DNA of 26,117 bases. Source: a virus. Location: IMG/VR virus record IMGVR_UViG_3300007541_000178, positions 1-26,117 of that record; one strand, given 5' to 3'. Position numbers and translations under genes: made by a program. The notes below the pieces were generated by a model that saw only the letters and a list, made by a program, of their open reading frames with translations, did not search any database and had not been told where the DNA came from. Below, piece by piece: positions 5,892 through 26,117 of the stretch (position 1 is its first letter; each line of letters opens with the position of its first letter).

Positions 5892-7406
5892 CTAGATTCT
5901 GATTAGATTTGAAAGACCGCCTGCAATATCTCCAAAAATCTGCGCTCCGCTCGGCTGGCGAGAGATTGCCCCGACCTGTGCGCCATAGGTACTGGAAAGA
6001 TAGTCCGCCTGCGCTCCGTATAAATTTGTGAACGTGTTTGTAAGTTGAACCGGAATCTCCTGTTGGGCCACCTGGAAGAACGGCTGCGCCGTGCTGGGTG
6101 CCTGCCCAAACTGACCAGGAAGCGGCTGGGTCGCCTGAATGTAGTTCTGGAAGGCAGCCTGCTGCTGGGCGGTTCTGGCCTGCGCCAAGTTGGCGATGGA
6201 AGGACCACCGGCGATGAAGCCGGAAGCGGCACCAAGGCGTTGCTGGCGGAGTGCGTCGCGAAGGGCAACATCGCGCGCCAAGGCCGCGCCGGTCGTCTCC
6301 CCGGATGCAAGGAACTGCTGGGCGGCTCCATACCGCGCAAGCTTGCGTTGCTCCCCTGCGGCCCCAAGGGTGGCCGCTTCCTCGACTGCCGGTCCAAGAC
6401 CGAAGATGTTCCCTCTGGCCGTCTGCGCCGCACGGACGGCCTGCTCGTACCCGCGCCGTTCCTCCTGCCCGATGGTCGATCCAAGGCGAAGCTGGTTGAG
6501 GGCTTCCTGCTCGATGGTCTTGCGAAGCTGTTCGGTCGGTTCCGTCGTGGTCGGCGGAAGCGGCGCTTCGGCCATCTGGCGGTACTGGCGACCAAGTCCA
6601 ACCGCCGTGCGGAAGGTGTCGGGGTCTATCTGGCGAAGCTGCTGGGTGGCTCGCTCTTCGGGCAACTGGATGTATTCGCGGAAAGCGACAATCTGTTTTA
6701 GCCCCTCTTCGCTCCCCGCAGCCAATGGCTTGAAGTTCTGGATCTGGTTGGTCGCGTCCGCAATGCCGGACTGCACGCTGGCCAGGTCGGAGCGGAGTTG
6801 GTTGACCACCACCTCGCTGGACGCACGGCGCGGGTCGCCAGCCGGAAGCGAGCCAAGCAGGTTCTGCGCCGCGTTGAGTCTTTCCGTGATTCCGGCAACC
6901 TGGGCGTTGCCCTGCTGGACAAGCTGGTTTAGACGACCCAGCTTGGCTTGGTTATAGTCGTTGAGAATCTGCTCGTCGCTGACTTGGAAGTTGAGGCGGG
7001 TGGCAAGGTCGGATGCGCCGAAGTTCTGGTCCCCGCCCAAGGCAGCCACGGCCTGATTGATAGCCTGCGGCTGGCCGACTTGCGATCCCGGCGCGCCGGT
7101 GGCTCCGCCCAGGGCGCGGATCTGTTCGGCGAGAGTGTTATAGGTTCCTTCGCGCCCATAGATTGCATCCTGAAGCTCGGTTTGGGCGGACAATAACTCC
7201 GAAAGCGTTTTGTCGTATTCTGGGTTCTTCTCAACATCGGTGGTTGAGGTGTTTACAAACCTGTCAGTTGCCTCTGTTCTTGCGCCACGGCTCCTTACCA
7301 TTACAGGAGATTTCCCGGCTTTAGTAGAAACCTTAAAGCTCTCCATCCCGGCCAGCTTATCATTCAGGTCGGCAACTTTTTTACGAAGTTCTTCTACGCT
7401 GGCCAT
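5892..7406 (-). CDS. internal virion protein, gp15 position
   Basis: I start this 504-residue protein at ATG 7406 (MASVEELRKK). The stop of the upstream gene is only one base away, and the frame can be extended to TTG 7490 only by overlapping that gene by 83 bases. The product is almost wholly helical and rich in Gln, Ala, Leu and Arg, with coiled-coil stretches near 1-25, 160-230 and 330-370 and a Gln/Ala-rich C-terminal half (AQQQAAFQNY). The end has a glycine-containing segment (GDIAGGLSNLIRI). Composition and order match the middle core protein of T7-like ejection complexes. No enzyme motif is seen. The start lacks a clear Shine-Dalgarno sequence, consistent with coupling to the gene above. 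Confidence 0.65.
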   Translation of the reverse strand: MASVEELRKKVADLNDKLAGMESFKVSTKAGKSPVMVRSRGARTEATDRFVNTSTTDVEKNPEYDKTLSELLSAQTELQDAIYGREGTYNTLAEQIRALGGATGAPGSQVGQPQAINQAVAALGGDQNFGASDLATRLNFQVSDEQILNDYNQAKLGRLNQLVQQGNAQVAGITERLNAAQNLLGSLPAGDPRRASSEVVVNQLRSDLASVQSGIADATNQIQNFKPLAAGSEEGLKQIVAFREYIQLPEERATQQLRQIDPDTFRTAVGLGRQYRQMAEAPLPPTTTEPTEQLRKTIEQEALNQLRLGSTIGQEERRGYEQAVRAAQTARGNIFGLGPAVEEAATLGAAGEQRKLARYGAAQQFLASGETTGAALARDVALRDALRQQRLGAASGFIAGGPSIANLAQARTAQQQAAFQNYIQATQPLPGQFGQAPSTAQPFFQVAQQEIPVQLTNTFTNLYGAQADYLSSTYGAQVGAISRQPSGAQIFGDIAGGLSNLIRI

Positions 7407-23277: not shown

Positions 23278-23316
23278 AACCTCTTTTTGTTTTGTGGCGC
23301 AATTATTTGGGGGGTA

Positions 23317-23967
23317 TTATACGTGTGAATCGGTGGCGGGGGGTGTAGGGGGAGGGGTGTCGTGTACCGGCCACTTTCTTAGGCTTTCTTGCCTTGGCTT
23401 TCGTCTTCGCATTCTCAAAGGCTTACCCTTTCCAGAATTTTTGAGTGTTGCAGTGACAATAGGTTGCGGATTATCTGTCGCACAATAGCTATTGTATTTA
23501 CTTTTAGGTTGTTCAATCGCCTTAACCTCCTGGCCCTCAATCACTTGCGCTTTCTTCTCCGCTCGGCGGGATGCGAGGCCGGCCAAGAGTTTAGTGAATG
23601 AATCGCCCACATTGTGAGTTATGGAAGTATCTACAGCCAAACGGCTTGAGGGGATTGCATGATGGTAAATGCGCTCGGCCAGCCACGCTTTCGCTTGCCA
23701 ACTACGCTCGCCAGCTAGTTCTATGTCACGCAACAAGCCAAGCTCGTGATTTTTTCGGGCGGTTTCCATCTTTCTGCCGAACCCTGGATTCCTATGCACC
23801 CAAGTTTTCAGAGTGCCAACAGGGACTCCAATCAAGCCAGCACACTTTTCAATTGTAAAGCCAGAGGCACAAGCGGACACGCACCTCTCCTCAATTTCCT
23901 TCGTAAATGCTACCTTCCCATTTTTGGATTTTTCGGGGAGATTGTCGGGCGGGTTTTCCACTCGCAC
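23317..23967 (-). CDS. terS: terminase small subunit
   Basis: The 216-residue protein starts at GTG 23967 (a second in-frame GTG lies two codons later). Residues about 20-65 form a helix-turn-helix (FTKEIEERCVSACASGFTIE, CAGLIGVPVGTLKTWVHRNP), as in DNA-recognising small terminases. A helical stretch (RKMETARKNHELGLLRDIEL, then ERSWQAKAWLAERIY) follows, suited to oligomerisation. The C-terminal 80 residues are basic and proline-rich (RMRRRKPRQESLRKWP), probably disordered and contacting TerL or DNA. It is the first gene of the leftward transcript and directly precedes terL. It selects packaging sites; the site itself is not visible to me. Confidence 0.75.
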   Translation of the reverse strand: MRVENPPDNLPEKSKNGKVAFTKEIEERCVSACASGFTIEKCAGLIGVPVGTLKTWVHRNPGFGRKMETARKNHELGLLRDIELAGERSWQAKAWLAERIYHHAIPSSRLAVDTSITHNVGDSFTKLLAGLASRRAEKKAQVIEGQEVKAIEQPKSKYNSYCATDNPQPIVTATLKNSGKGKPLRMRRRKPRQESLRKWPVHDTPPPTPPATDSHV

Positions 23968-23999
23968 AACCTAGCATAAAAGATTCTCAAAAATAATTG

Positions 24000-24029
24000 T
24001 TGACACAACCAACCCGCTTGGACTAGGCT
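24000..24029 (+). promoter_or_regulatory. probable sigma-70-type promoter for the rightward operon
   Basis: TTGACA (24000-24005) is a perfect -35 box. TAGGCT (24024-24029) has the key T, A and final T of a -10 box at 18-base spacing. Transcription would begin near 24036, the first base of the ATG, and no Shine-Dalgarno precedes that ATG. The -35 lies in an imperfect inverted repeat TTGT-TGAC-ACAA that could bind a repressor. It is in the 68-base region between divergent terS and the first rightward gene. Confidence 0.5.
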
Positions 24030-24035
24030 CCATTC

Positions 24036-24245
24036 ATGCAAAACACGCACACCAAAACCGAAGCGGAAGCGGTTAAAGCCTTCCGCATTGCGATTCTCGA
24101 CAAAATCTTCGAGGAGCAGGTCGCTCTTTCCAATGAAATTGGAGCTTCGGAGGCAAAGAAAAACAATCGCAAAGCCGATGCGTTGCGGGAACGCAAAATG
24201 GGGCTTTGGATTGCAGAGCAGACCATCAAGCAGTTTTGCGGGTAA
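24036..24245 (+). CDS. hypothetical early protein, 69 residues
   Basis: First gene of the rightward group. The product begins MQNTHTKTEAEAVKAFRIAI and is one long charged helix set (AKKNNRKADALRERKMGLWI), with a C-terminal Cys. No family is recognised. Its first 18 residues align with those of the next gene at M, N, T, T, K, R and I. There is no ribosome-binding site and the promoter is so close that the message may be leaderless. The stop is four bases before the next ATG. Confidence 0.65.
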   Translation: MQNTHTKTEAEAVKAFRIAILDKIFEEQVALSNEIGASEAKKNNRKADALRERKMGLWIAEQTIKQFCG

Positions 24246-24249
24246 TAAT

Positions 24250-24573
24250 ATGAGCAACACACGCACCAACGCCGACAAGCAGACGGCCAAAGTTCTGCGA
24301 ATATCCGCAAACGAACTTGCCGAGCAGTTTATCGGCTCGACAATTCAACACGATGATTGGGAGCAAGCGGGAAAGATTCTTTCCGACCTTGCCGACAACA
24401 TTGTTGCGCCCGAAACCTTGCGGGACTTGTCGCAACTATTCTTGGACATCGCAGACGAAGCAGAGCGGATAAAGCCCGATGATGAACACGAAGCACACGC
24501 CACTGAATCACTCTGCGAGTTGATCGCAGAAAAACTTATGGCGAAATATGATCGCCATATTGGCAGAGCATAA
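24250..24573 (+). CDS. hypothetical early protein, 107 residues
   Basis: I choose ATG 24250 (MSNTRTNADKQTAKVLRISA), right after the previous stop, over an in-frame upstream start that lies inside that gene. The product is acidic and helical (DWEQAGKILSDLADNIVAPE, LRDLSQLFLDIADEAERIKP) and ends MAKYDRHIGRA. No domain is recognised. Its opening resembles the product of the gene before it, so the two may share an origin or a start-region function. It is likely coupled to that gene because its own Shine-Dalgarno is weak. Confidence 0.65.
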   Translation: MSNTRTNADKQTAKVLRISANELAEQFIGSTIQHDDWEQAGKILSDLADNIVAPETLRDLSQLFLDIADEAERIKPDDEHEAHATESLCELIAEKLMAKYDRHIGRA

Positions 24574-24585
24574 ACCCAAAAACCA

Positions 24586-24603
24586 AAAGAAAGGAAACGC
24601 ACA
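24586..24603 (+). promoter_or_regulatory. stereotyped ribosome-binding leader, copy 1
   Basis: AAAGAAAGGAA followed by ACGCACA directly precedes ATG 24604. It is the first of four near-identical leaders in this operon, with the AGGA core 8 bases before the start. Confidence 0.75.
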
Positions 24604-24828
24604 ATGAGCGCACTATATGGAACACTAAAAGGAGCAAAAGGAATGGCCACACGATGTGGCCACCGAGAATTGACCACTCACGCCGCAAGTTGGGATGGAG
24701 CGGTTCGGGTGAGTCTTAATAACGACAAGAAAACCGGATCGACATCCTATGTTGTCGAGCTAGTGCCTTGGCACGGCAACGGAGAATATCGGAAACTGGC
24801 CGAAGGAATTATGGAGAAGCGGAAATGA
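24604..24828 (+). CDS. hypothetical protein, 74 residues
   Basis: The product begins MSALYGTLKGAKGMATRCGH and contains alternating strands (GAVRVSLNNDKKTGSTSYVV, then ELVPWHG), so it may be a small mixed alpha/beta domain. The middle and end are basic (GEYRKLAEGIMEKRK). Similar short proteins of phage early regions have no known job. The start has the stereotyped leader; the stop overlaps the next ATG as ATGA. Confidence 0.65.
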   Translation: MSALYGTLKGAKGMATRCGHRELTTHAASWDGAVRVSLNNDKKTGSTSYVVELVPWHGNGEYRKLAEGIMEKRK

Positions 24829-24956
24829 TCTGCTTCTGCATTTACTCCCGAGCAGGCTCCTTCCTCCTCCGCTTCTCATCATATGAGCGAGCGGAAGCGT
24901 GGAGGAGGGCAAGAGGGGTTGAAAATTACACCATACGAAAGGAGGTGTGGAGATGA
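24825..24956 (+). CDS. hypothetical protein, 43 residues
   Basis: The gene starts in an ATGA overlap with the one before it and ends in an ATGA overlap with the one after. The product, MICFCIYSRAGSFLLRFSSY..., is basic and aromatic with a likely strand-helix fold (YERAEAWRRARGVENYTIRK). Overlap on both sides supports a genuine coupled gene. It has no recognised family. Confidence 0.55.
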   Translation: MICFCIYSRAGSFLLRFSSYERAEAWRRARGVENYTIRKEVWR

Positions 24957-25048
24957 TCGCAGAAGTTCACGGAGCCGTCTACTTCGCCCACGGATTGATT
25001 TTGGGCGGGATCTTGGCGGCTTTCGCAATGTTCATCGGGCGGAAATAA
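24953..25048 (+). CDS. one-span membrane miniprotein, 31 residues
   Basis: ATG 24953 has a strong AAAGGAGG 7 bases upstream and ends at TAA 25048. The product begins MIAEVHGAVYFAHGLILGGI and ends AAFAMFIGRK: a single membrane span at about residues 8-28 with a basic end. Such miniproteins may modulate the host envelope or superinfection. No family is known to me. The good ribosome-binding site makes it credible despite its size. Confidence 0.6.
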   Translation: MIAEVHGAVYFAHGLILGGILAAFAMFIGRK

Positions 25049-25056
25049 AAACAATA

Positions 25057-25073
25057 AAAGAAAGGAATACAAA
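25057..25073 (+). promoter_or_regulatory. stereotyped ribosome-binding leader, copy 2
   Basis: AAAGAAAGGAA then TACAAA precedes ATG 25074, with the AGGA core 7 bases before the start. Confidence 0.75.
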
Positions 25074-25265
25074 ATGAAAAATAAACTATTCGTAGTATAC
25101 GCAAAGAGCGTTGTGAAATACCAAATAGAAGTAAACGCCAGCAGCGCAGAAGAAGCCGTTAAGAAAGCGGAAACGATCGACGCTGGCGAGTGGATAGAAG
25201 ACGAAAGAAGCGGAGACTTCGAAGTGACATGGGCGGAGGCTTTCGATATTTGCAAACTCAAATAA
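25074..25265 (+). CDS. hypothetical protein, 63 residues
   Basis: The product begins MKNKLFVVYAKSVVKYQIEV, a strand pair, followed by a helix (SSAEEAVKKAETIDAGEWIE) and a last strand (SGDFEVTWAEAFDI). This beta-beta-alpha-beta pattern, with a helix opening on [SA]S-x-E-E-A, is seen in many small phage proteins of unknown role. It has the stereotyped leader, and a two-hairpin element begins right after its stop. Confidence 0.65.
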   Translation: MKNKLFVVYAKSVVKYQIEVNASSAEEAVKKAETIDAGEWIEDERSGDFEVTWAEAFDICKLK

Positions 25266-25328
25266 GTCTCCCCTCGTTCCCCCTCGTCACGGAGGGGGAC
25301 GGAGGCGAGATCCGATAGGGTCGAACCT
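25266..25328 (+). repeat. two-hairpin intergenic RNA element, copy 1
   Basis: Hairpin 1: TCTC (25267-25270) with GAGA (25307-25310); CCTC (25272-25275) with GAGG (25302-25305); TCCCCCTC (25278-25285) with GAGGGGGA (25292-25299), and a 6-base loop. Hairpin 2: GATCC (25309-25313) with GGGTC (25318-25322), closing a GATA loop. The two share the bases GA at 25309-25310, so their outer pairs compete. No U-run follows, so this is not a standard terminator. It fills the start of the 91-base gap before the next gene. Confidence 0.75.
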
Positions 25329-25338
25329 AATAAACAGT

Positions 25339-25356
25339 AAAGAAAGGAAACACAAA
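25339..25356 (+). promoter_or_regulatory. stereotyped ribosome-binding leader, copy 3
   Basis: AAAGAAAGGAA then ACACAAA precedes ATG 25357, with the AGGA core 8 bases before the start. Confidence 0.75.
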
Positions 25357-25626
25357 ATGAGAAAGAGTCAAAAATACTATATTGGAGAAGTTAAGGAACA
25401 GAATGGGGAGTTTCAGTATGAGACAAAGTACCTATTCGAAACTGATGGATGCCCGCTTGAATACGCTGAAAGAGTTGCAAAAACTTGGCGTGGCGATGAG
25501 GATAATAAATACGATGAGGGTGCTGCTGGTTACTGGTCGGGCGATTGCATTATGTCGACAGGCATCATTAAAAAGATTCCGCTTAAGGATTTTAATGTCC
25601 TTAAAAAATATTTGGTCAAACTATAA
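25357..25626 (+). CDS. hypothetical protein, 89 residues
   Basis: The product begins MRKSQKYYIGEVKEQNGEFQ and continues YETKYLFETDGCPLEYAERV, a strand-strand-helix start. An acidic loop (RGDEDNKYDEGAAGYW) and a basic helix (KIPLKDFNVLKKYLVKL) follow. The order and aromatic residues suggest a compact single domain. No family is recognised. A neighbouring frame of the same length lacks the leader spacing and looks like a shadow. Confidence 0.65.
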   Translation: MRKSQKYYIGEVKEQNGEFQYETKYLFETDGCPLEYAERVAKTWRGDEDNKYDEGAAGYWSGDCIMSTGIIKKIPLKDFNVLKKYLVKL

Positions 25627-25629
25627 TCC

Positions 25630-25647
25630 AAAGAAAGGAAACGCAAA
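25630..25647 (+). promoter_or_regulatory. stereotyped ribosome-binding leader, copy 4
   Basis: AAAGAAAGGAA then ACGCAAA precedes ATG 25648. It is nearly identical to copies 1 and 3, with the same spacing. Confidence 0.75.
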
Positions 25648-25950
25648 ATGAAAGTAAGACCACTGGCAGAACAACGCATTAAGGACGAATTGACCCCGAT
25701 AGATTTAGAAGAACTTTACCGGGAAATATTGGACGAATCCGGGGCCGTTGATGTTGGCGGTTTGTCGTTTATGCCGTCCGATATCATGGAGAAGCTCGAT
25801 CCGGTTGCGTTTCGTTGTGGGGTCAGCGATTATGCTGATAGCCTAATCAACGAAACTATTACGGATGAAATTGACGGCAAGCATTATGACCTGAGAGAGG
25901 CGCAGGATATCGTTGACGAAGTAGAAGCAGAATTGGAGGAGGTTGAATAG
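25648..25950 (+). CDS. hypothetical acidic protein, 100 residues
   Basis: The product begins MKVRPLAEQRIKDELTPIDL and is strongly acidic and helical (EELYREILDESGAVDVGGLS, then SDIMEKLDPVAFRCGVSDYA). It ends EAQDIVDEVEAELEEVE. Acidic, helix-rich early proteins can mimic DNA or bind host proteins, but that is only a possibility here. It has the stereotyped leader and is followed within three bases by the second two-hairpin element. Confidence 0.65.
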   Translation: MKVRPLAEQRIKDELTPIDLEELYREILDESGAVDVGGLSFMPSDIMEKLDPVAFRCGVSDYADSLINETITDEIDGKHYDLREAQDIVDEVEAELEEVE

Positions 25951-25952
25951 TA

Positions 25953-26013
25953 GTCTCCCCTCGTCTCTCCCCCACAAGGGGGGAGCGGAGGTGAGACCCG
26001 ATAGGGTCAACCT
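25953..26013 (+). repeat. two-hairpin intergenic RNA element, copy 2
   Basis: Hairpin 1: TCTC (25954-25957) with GAGA (25993-25996); CCTC (25959-25962) with GAGG (25988-25991); CTCCCCC (25967-25973) with GGGGGAG (25979-25985). Hairpin 2: GACCC (25995-25999) with GGGTC (26004-26008), GATA loop. The inner stem differs from copy 1 in sequence yet stays paired, and the U-G pair of copy 1 hairpin 2 is C-G here. The ends AGTCTCCCCTCG and GATAGGGTC are conserved. Confidence 0.75.
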
Positions 26014-26022
26014 ACAAACGGA

Positions 26023-26048
26023 ACCGCAACCGGGTCAATCCTGGCGGT
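26023..26048 (+). other. third small hairpin before the last gene
   Basis: ACCG (26023-26026) can pair with CGGT (26045-26048) and CCGGG (26030-26034) with CCTGG (26040-26044), with a TCAAT loop and a three-base bulge. It lies just after the second two-hairpin element but is not a copy of it. The fold is only modestly stable and could be chance. Confidence 0.35.
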
Positions 26049-26077
26049 GGGGATGAAAGAAAGAAGGAGGATGGAAG

Positions 26078-26117
26078 ATGCAAACGATTACAAAAGCGGA
26101 ATGGGTTCAAAGGAGTA
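26078..26117 (+). CDS. start of a gene cut by the right window edge
   Basis: ATG 26078 has AAGGAGG 7 bases upstream and opens a frame of at least 13 codons (MQTITKAEWVQRS). An ATG at 26071 directly follows the same Shine-Dalgarno and is too close to it. Too little is visible to say more than that the operon continues. Confidence 0.55.
   Translation, partial: MQTITKAEWVQRS

Follow-up and report, generated by a model that had tools for sequence, protein, structure and literature searches.

A conserved sense-strand RNA family with two competing folds, found at stop codons of small genes in uncultured phages

Background

Two copies of an element of just over 60 bases stand between small genes of an uncultured phage, each at a stop codon, and raise the question of what such an element does there and whether it acts as DNA or as RNA. 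The window, meaning the whole stretch of DNA that was analysed, is a complete IMG/VR record of 26,117 bases. Its left 24 kb carry leftward structural genes (terminase subunits, portal or adaptor, and major head protein), and a short rightward block of small genes, which holds both copies, starts at about 24 kb. Contig L005 matches window positions 24508-26117 at 100% and extends beyond them; its ORF list suggests that leftward genes resume a few kb further on.

The two copies in the window

Both elements described in an earlier note on this DNA are present on the + strand. Copy 1 (64 nt, 25266-25329) matched the covariance model described below at 89.9 bits (E 5.5e-19) and copy 2 (62 nt, 25953-26014) at 76.6 bits (E 9.5e-16), both being among the sequences used to build that model. 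The copies are 80% identical, and their folding energies lie below those of dinucleotide shuffles (z -3.1 for copy 1 and z -4.0 for copy 2).

Copy 1 starts immediately 3' of the TAA (25263-25265) that ends a 63-aa ORF of family c3 (25074-25265, + strand). It is followed by a purine-rich leader of 27 nt with a Shine-Dalgarno-like AAAGAAAGG (25330-25356, + strand), which precedes an 89-aa ORF (25357-25626, + strand). Copy 2 lies behind a 100-aa ORF (25648-25950, + strand; PHROG 9294, function not known) that ends in a tandem TAG TAG, the G of the second TAG being the first base of the element, and a long leader (26015-26077, + strand) then reaches an ATG at 26078. At a third junction, behind a 31-aa ORF encoding a probable membrane peptide (24953-25048, + strand), the leader directly follows the stop and the window has no element, which is present exactly here in relatives.

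Other repeats and folds were seen in the same block. A leader of the type AAAGAAAGGAAACRCAMAATGA, reminiscent of SAS in cluster K mycobacteriophages, recurs before several small genes (window 24581-24607, 25049-25081, 25334-25360 and 25625-25651). The hexamer AAACGG occurs seven times in about 1.4 kb, always on the + strand (L005, 1509-2905; the first copy is at window 26016), within and past the end of the rightward block, and the leader of copy 2 opens with one. A third hairpin (ACCGC..GCGGU type) can be drawn by eye in the leader at 26015-26077 and in other long leaders, and another G+C-rich fold (z -1.95) lies between small genes at window 24826-24915.

Each copy consists of a 5' arm (25266-25275 in copy 1; 25953-25962 in copy 2), an inner hairpin of 8 bp (25278-25299, loop GUCACG; 25965-25985, loop CACAA), a centre (GAGGCGAGAU, 25302-25311; GAGGUGAGAC, 25988-25997), the core of a second hairpin (GAUCC-GAUA-GGGUC, 25309-25322; GACCC-GAUA-GGGUC, 25995-26008) and a 3' tail (CCUA, 25326-25329; ACCUA, 26010-26014), all on the + strand. 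The centre can pair with the 5' arm, giving a fold that we call S1, or in part with the 3' tail, giving S2; the inner hairpin fits both. In S2, CCU of the copy 1 tail pairs with AGG at 25303-25305, and ACCU of the copy 2 tail with AGGU at 25989-25992. An inner stem of 8 bp had been described for copy 1 and of 7 bp for copy 2; the first length holds and the second is also 8 bp. This stem proved to be only the tip of a longer hairpin. The overlap between the hairpins, put at two bases, is larger, since the first three bases of the core (GAU or GAC) and the AGG before them are used by both folds.

A family in related phages

A search with a 19-base core found 17 contigs, and terminase relatives provided 80 loci, in which the element lies on the strand opposite the terminase, as does the rightward block of small genes. 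With a covariance model built from 20 copies, 75 distinct sense copies were recovered; they come from 57 contigs, of which 31 carry a single copy and 26 carry two. A type-C pattern together with the model added 45 more distinct copies, and a DNA pattern for type D matched only two stretches. The family thus comprises about 120 distinct copies in contigs of related uncultured phages. Antisense matches, at no more than about 28 bits, are a product of the palindromic shape.

Rfam 15 gave no covariance-model match to the window up to E 1 or to five relatives up to E 0.1. No relative was found at the DNA level among cultured phages, whose portal and capsid proteins show only about 26 to 33% identity among the matches listed. 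The sole match in bacterial genomes was L096, a 3,177-bp contig in a Lake Lanier MAG that carries a close terminase relative; it is probably a phage contig binned with a bacterium, and assignment of a host through bacterial genomes was rejected on this ground.

The suggestion that the element is a mobile repeat was borne out in one respect, its precise presence or absence at a stop codon. It failed in another: each of the 12 long, near-full records (32-42 kb) has only one or two sense copies, confined to one short rightward block of small genes, so the element is not a dispersed repeat.

Two competing folds

S1 is one long hairpin of 17 pairs in three segments. Its pairing is kept in 97.3% of cells of the alignment (at most 64% in slid controls), both sides have changed at 13 of the 17 pairs, and the swap test gave z -9.9; in these and all other covariation counts and swap tests, related copies were taken as independent and no tree was used. 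Compensated forms include GUCUC/GAGAC, GUUU/AAAC, GCUU/AAGC, ACUU/AAGU, CCUC/GAGG, CCUU/AAGG and CCAU/AUGG. The ends of the element are conserved, the inner stem is variable and the hairpin loops are unconserved. A UAGG/CCUA hairpin beside S1 is predicted in the window copies and is not kept in other types.

S2 is a shorter hairpin beside the retained inner hairpin, and the two folds are mutually exclusive. Its pairing is present in 89.3% of cells, against 48% or less when slid. As the tail plays no role in S1, the match between tail and centre is a clean test of S2. With copies again treated as independent, the full S2 swap test gave z -11.8 and its outer extension alone z -4.6, with no signal for a reversed-tail control; in the window-like subfamily the outer extension alone was weak (z -1.8). 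Core pairings include GACCC/GGGUC and GAUUC/GAAUC, and outer pairings AGGU/ACCU, AGGUCA/UGACCU, AGGUC/GACCU and GGAUG/CAUCC. By the program's count, both sides have changed at only three of ten pairs, no more than in shuffles, which also show a larger variety of pair types; co-variation supports S2 less strongly than S1. In six loci (L023, L017, L065, L082, L085 and L070) the loop of the second hairpin is reverse-complemented (GATA to TATC) with its stem kept.

Predicted energies of the two folds are nearly equal (arm-masked minus tail-masked, median +0.5 kcal/mol) in a comparison that used an earlier parse of the element ends, with some 3' ends short; the swap and masking tests used the corrected parse. 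In the modelled free RNA, pairing of arm with centre had a median probability of 0.93 and S1 was favoured in 59 of 74 copies. When the first 11 bases were masked, about the length that a terminating ribosome would occupy, S2 was the predicted fold in 72 of 74 copies (tail pairing > 0.5). Masking the arm forbids S1 by construction, so this test shows only what replaces S1, namely the tail.

Two incompatible pairings, each kept by co-variation, are the mark of a bistable cis-regulatory RNA, and both were found here. The idea of two competing hairpins has been sharpened into a contest of three strands (5' arm, centre and 3' tail) in which both pairings co-vary. Selection on RNA structure, which the earlier note had read from the two window copies, is supported. 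It was the relatives that proved conservation of the structure, as the two copies alone would not suffice: the checks which that note had proposed turned up many further copies in related phages and strong covariation in their alignment (copies counted as independent).

The strand of action was read from combinations that work in one strand only: G-U forms a pair in the sense strand alone, and A facing C would give one in the antisense strand alone. G-U outnumbered A-C by 68 to 1 in S1 and by 20 to 0 in S2, which places selection on the gene-sense strand. This points to an RNA read in the same direction as the genes rather than to a signal in double-stranded DNA. Because of this strand preference and the tie to stop codons, the packaging or replication signal that had also been put forward is not favoured. 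The element represents a genuine family of conserved RNAs of the sense strand, which has two folds in competition and is new to Rfam.

Position behind stop codons

The upstream genes are unrelated to one another, and the element begins at their stop codons or no more than about nine bases away, most commonly at offset 0 or +1. Measured from the longest upstream ORF, 59 of 74 copies have offset 0 or +1; among the 45 additional copies, 32 have an upstream stop at one of these offsets. Of the 20 families to which the upstream genes belong, 15 show offset 0 or +1. Stop-codon readthrough was rejected, because these two offsets put the element in different frames and there can be no shared extension. 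Roughly one-fifth to one-quarter of copies stand a few bases further from the upstream stop, and some of these retain TA or TAA at the boundary; the spacing could therefore also reflect an insertion boundary.

The common gene order is c2, c0, element, variable gene, (element), variable genes, c1. The conserved gene c0 (27-32 aa) ends without the element in seven loci, six of which have an A-rich AACAATAAAAGAAAGG-type leader directly after its stop, as does the window. The variable genes differ between phages and some recur in other slots. Nine of ten proteins of the block that were scanned had no Pfam match. The tenth resembles the central domain of DNA polymerase III beta: a 178-aa gene between two elements (L065, reverse strand, 6487-7023) matches PF02767 above the cut-off.

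Such an arrangement could mark a boundary for gene swapping, at which repeated elements and leaders provide the homology for exchange of small genes between phages, a role that has been proposed for the PeSL cassettes of T4. Variable genes between or beside elements and in different slots, the precise presence or absence at a stop codon, and the one or two copies per near-full record are all consistent with this. Exchange through DNA homology would not call for RNA pairing in the sense strand, and the large excess of G-U over A-C therefore speaks against it. As the main explanation exchange seems distinctly unlikely; recombination may be a side effect.

The position behind a stop codon, the conserved ends and the variable inner stem would likewise fit an attC recombination site of the integron kind, one of which follows every cassette gene. 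attC acts as a folded bottom strand, whereas here pairing is kept on the gene-sense strand, and no tyrosine recombinase (PF00589) was found in any of 12 near-full records, a set to which the window's own record does not belong (controls 14 of 14). The missing integrase in these records and the strand of pairing disfavour an integron cassette, which is hardly credible.

Proposed mechanism and alternatives

The data support the view that two pairings compete and are conserved, that the element acts in the gene-sense strand, and that it sits at stop codons and is reused behind unrelated genes. From these we infer, with middling confidence, a reusable bistable intercistronic RNA whose state would depend on termination at the end of the upstream gene. 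Free RNA would usually have its 5' arm paired with the centre (S1); if the arm were unavailable, the centre would pair with the 3' tail (S2) and the inner hairpin would be kept. A bacterial ribosome covers about 10 nt downstream of a stop codon. The arm starts at the upstream stop, so that termination would place about ten of its bases under the ribosome and flip S1 to S2; because the ribosome would flip the fold, the fold would report translation of the upstream gene. It would then most likely tune expression or processing of the next gene.

The simplest output, masking of the next ribosome-binding site by the freed 5' arm, was not supported, as shuffled arms pair about as well with the next Shine-Dalgarno sequence (mean -5.75 kcal/mol for true arms and -5.52 kcal/mol for shuffled arms).

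A processing or stability hairpin is a more conventional candidate. The element would be cut by RNase III or another enzyme, or would shield the upstream message from 3' exonucleases, with S2 incidental or a folding intermediate. The long irregular hairpin resembles the RNase III sites of the T7 early region, and its place between small genes, conserved pairing, variable inner stem and unconserved loops all suit such a role, as does G11 beside the internal loop, invariant in 52 aligned copies. An RNase site or a protein-binding leader, both listed in the earlier note, may still apply, although neither hairpin loop is conserved. Processing alone leaves the co-variation of tail and centre and the near-equal energies unexplained; we regard it as an unlikely though serious explanation.

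Two competing hairpins of similar size within a short transcription unit also recall a transcription attenuator, or an antitermination RNA of the HK022 put type, acting on RNA polymerase. Neither copy coincides with a site listed by a terminator scan of 23300-26117, and the sequences behind them (ATAAACAG after copy 1 and CAAACGG after copy 2) form no T-run; an intrinsic terminator was rejected. With neither terminator nor T-run, and with copies located between genes, not where a transcript begins, action on RNA polymerase is very improbable.

The ribosome-set switch is compatible with a processing hairpin and with an exchange boundary, neither of which excludes it. It is possible, if somewhat doubtful, that the element is a portable switch that senses termination on any upstream gene and sets expression of the next, easing the uptake of new small genes without redesigned control. 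The interest of the family lies in its absence from Rfam and in the visibility of both switch folds in the sequence record, tied to the stops of unrelated genes. Were the mechanism true, it would provide a compact portable module that couples translation of neighbouring genes, and a route for phages to gain operon genes while control is retained.

Comparison with known systems

The closest functional precedent is the 3'-UTR of TYMV, a structured RNA at a stop codon whose fold is changed by the terminating ribosome, so that upstream translation is sensed (PMC6265322). There the stop codon opens a 3'-UTR domain, the ribosome footprint is stated to take in about 16 nt past the stop, and the footprint unfolds the domain and alters translation (PMC6265322). 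The TYMV RNA differs in being the 3' end of a plant RNA virus, with a pseudoknot domain and a tRNA-like structure (tRNA mimicry). The phage element is intercistronic and has two competing hairpins, and the effect of the ribosome on it is a proposal.

Attenuators of the trp type form mutually exclusive hairpins and respond to stalling in one leader peptide. As in the element, three strands contest a common centre and a ribosome can decide the outcome; the element differs in having no terminator or T-run, and its trigger would be termination at the stops of many unrelated genes. The cIII mRNA of lambda, another phage mRNA, has two balanced conformers whose structures include the start region of the gene, whereas the window copies end 27 or 63 bases before the next start.

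PeSL cassettes of T4 are stem-loop elements that reportedly bound exchangeable phage genes and carry early promoters. The likeness lies in stem-loops bounding exchangeable genes; unlike promoter-bearing PeSLs, the window gave no sigma-70-type promoter on the + strand of 23300-26117. SAS and ESAS of cluster K mycobacteriophages (13 and 17 bp) have another sequence, and the available part of their description mentions no alternative pairing (PMC3203893). As repeated elements with inverted repeats just upstream of some small phage genes they resemble the element, which, like them, adjoins a repeated leader.
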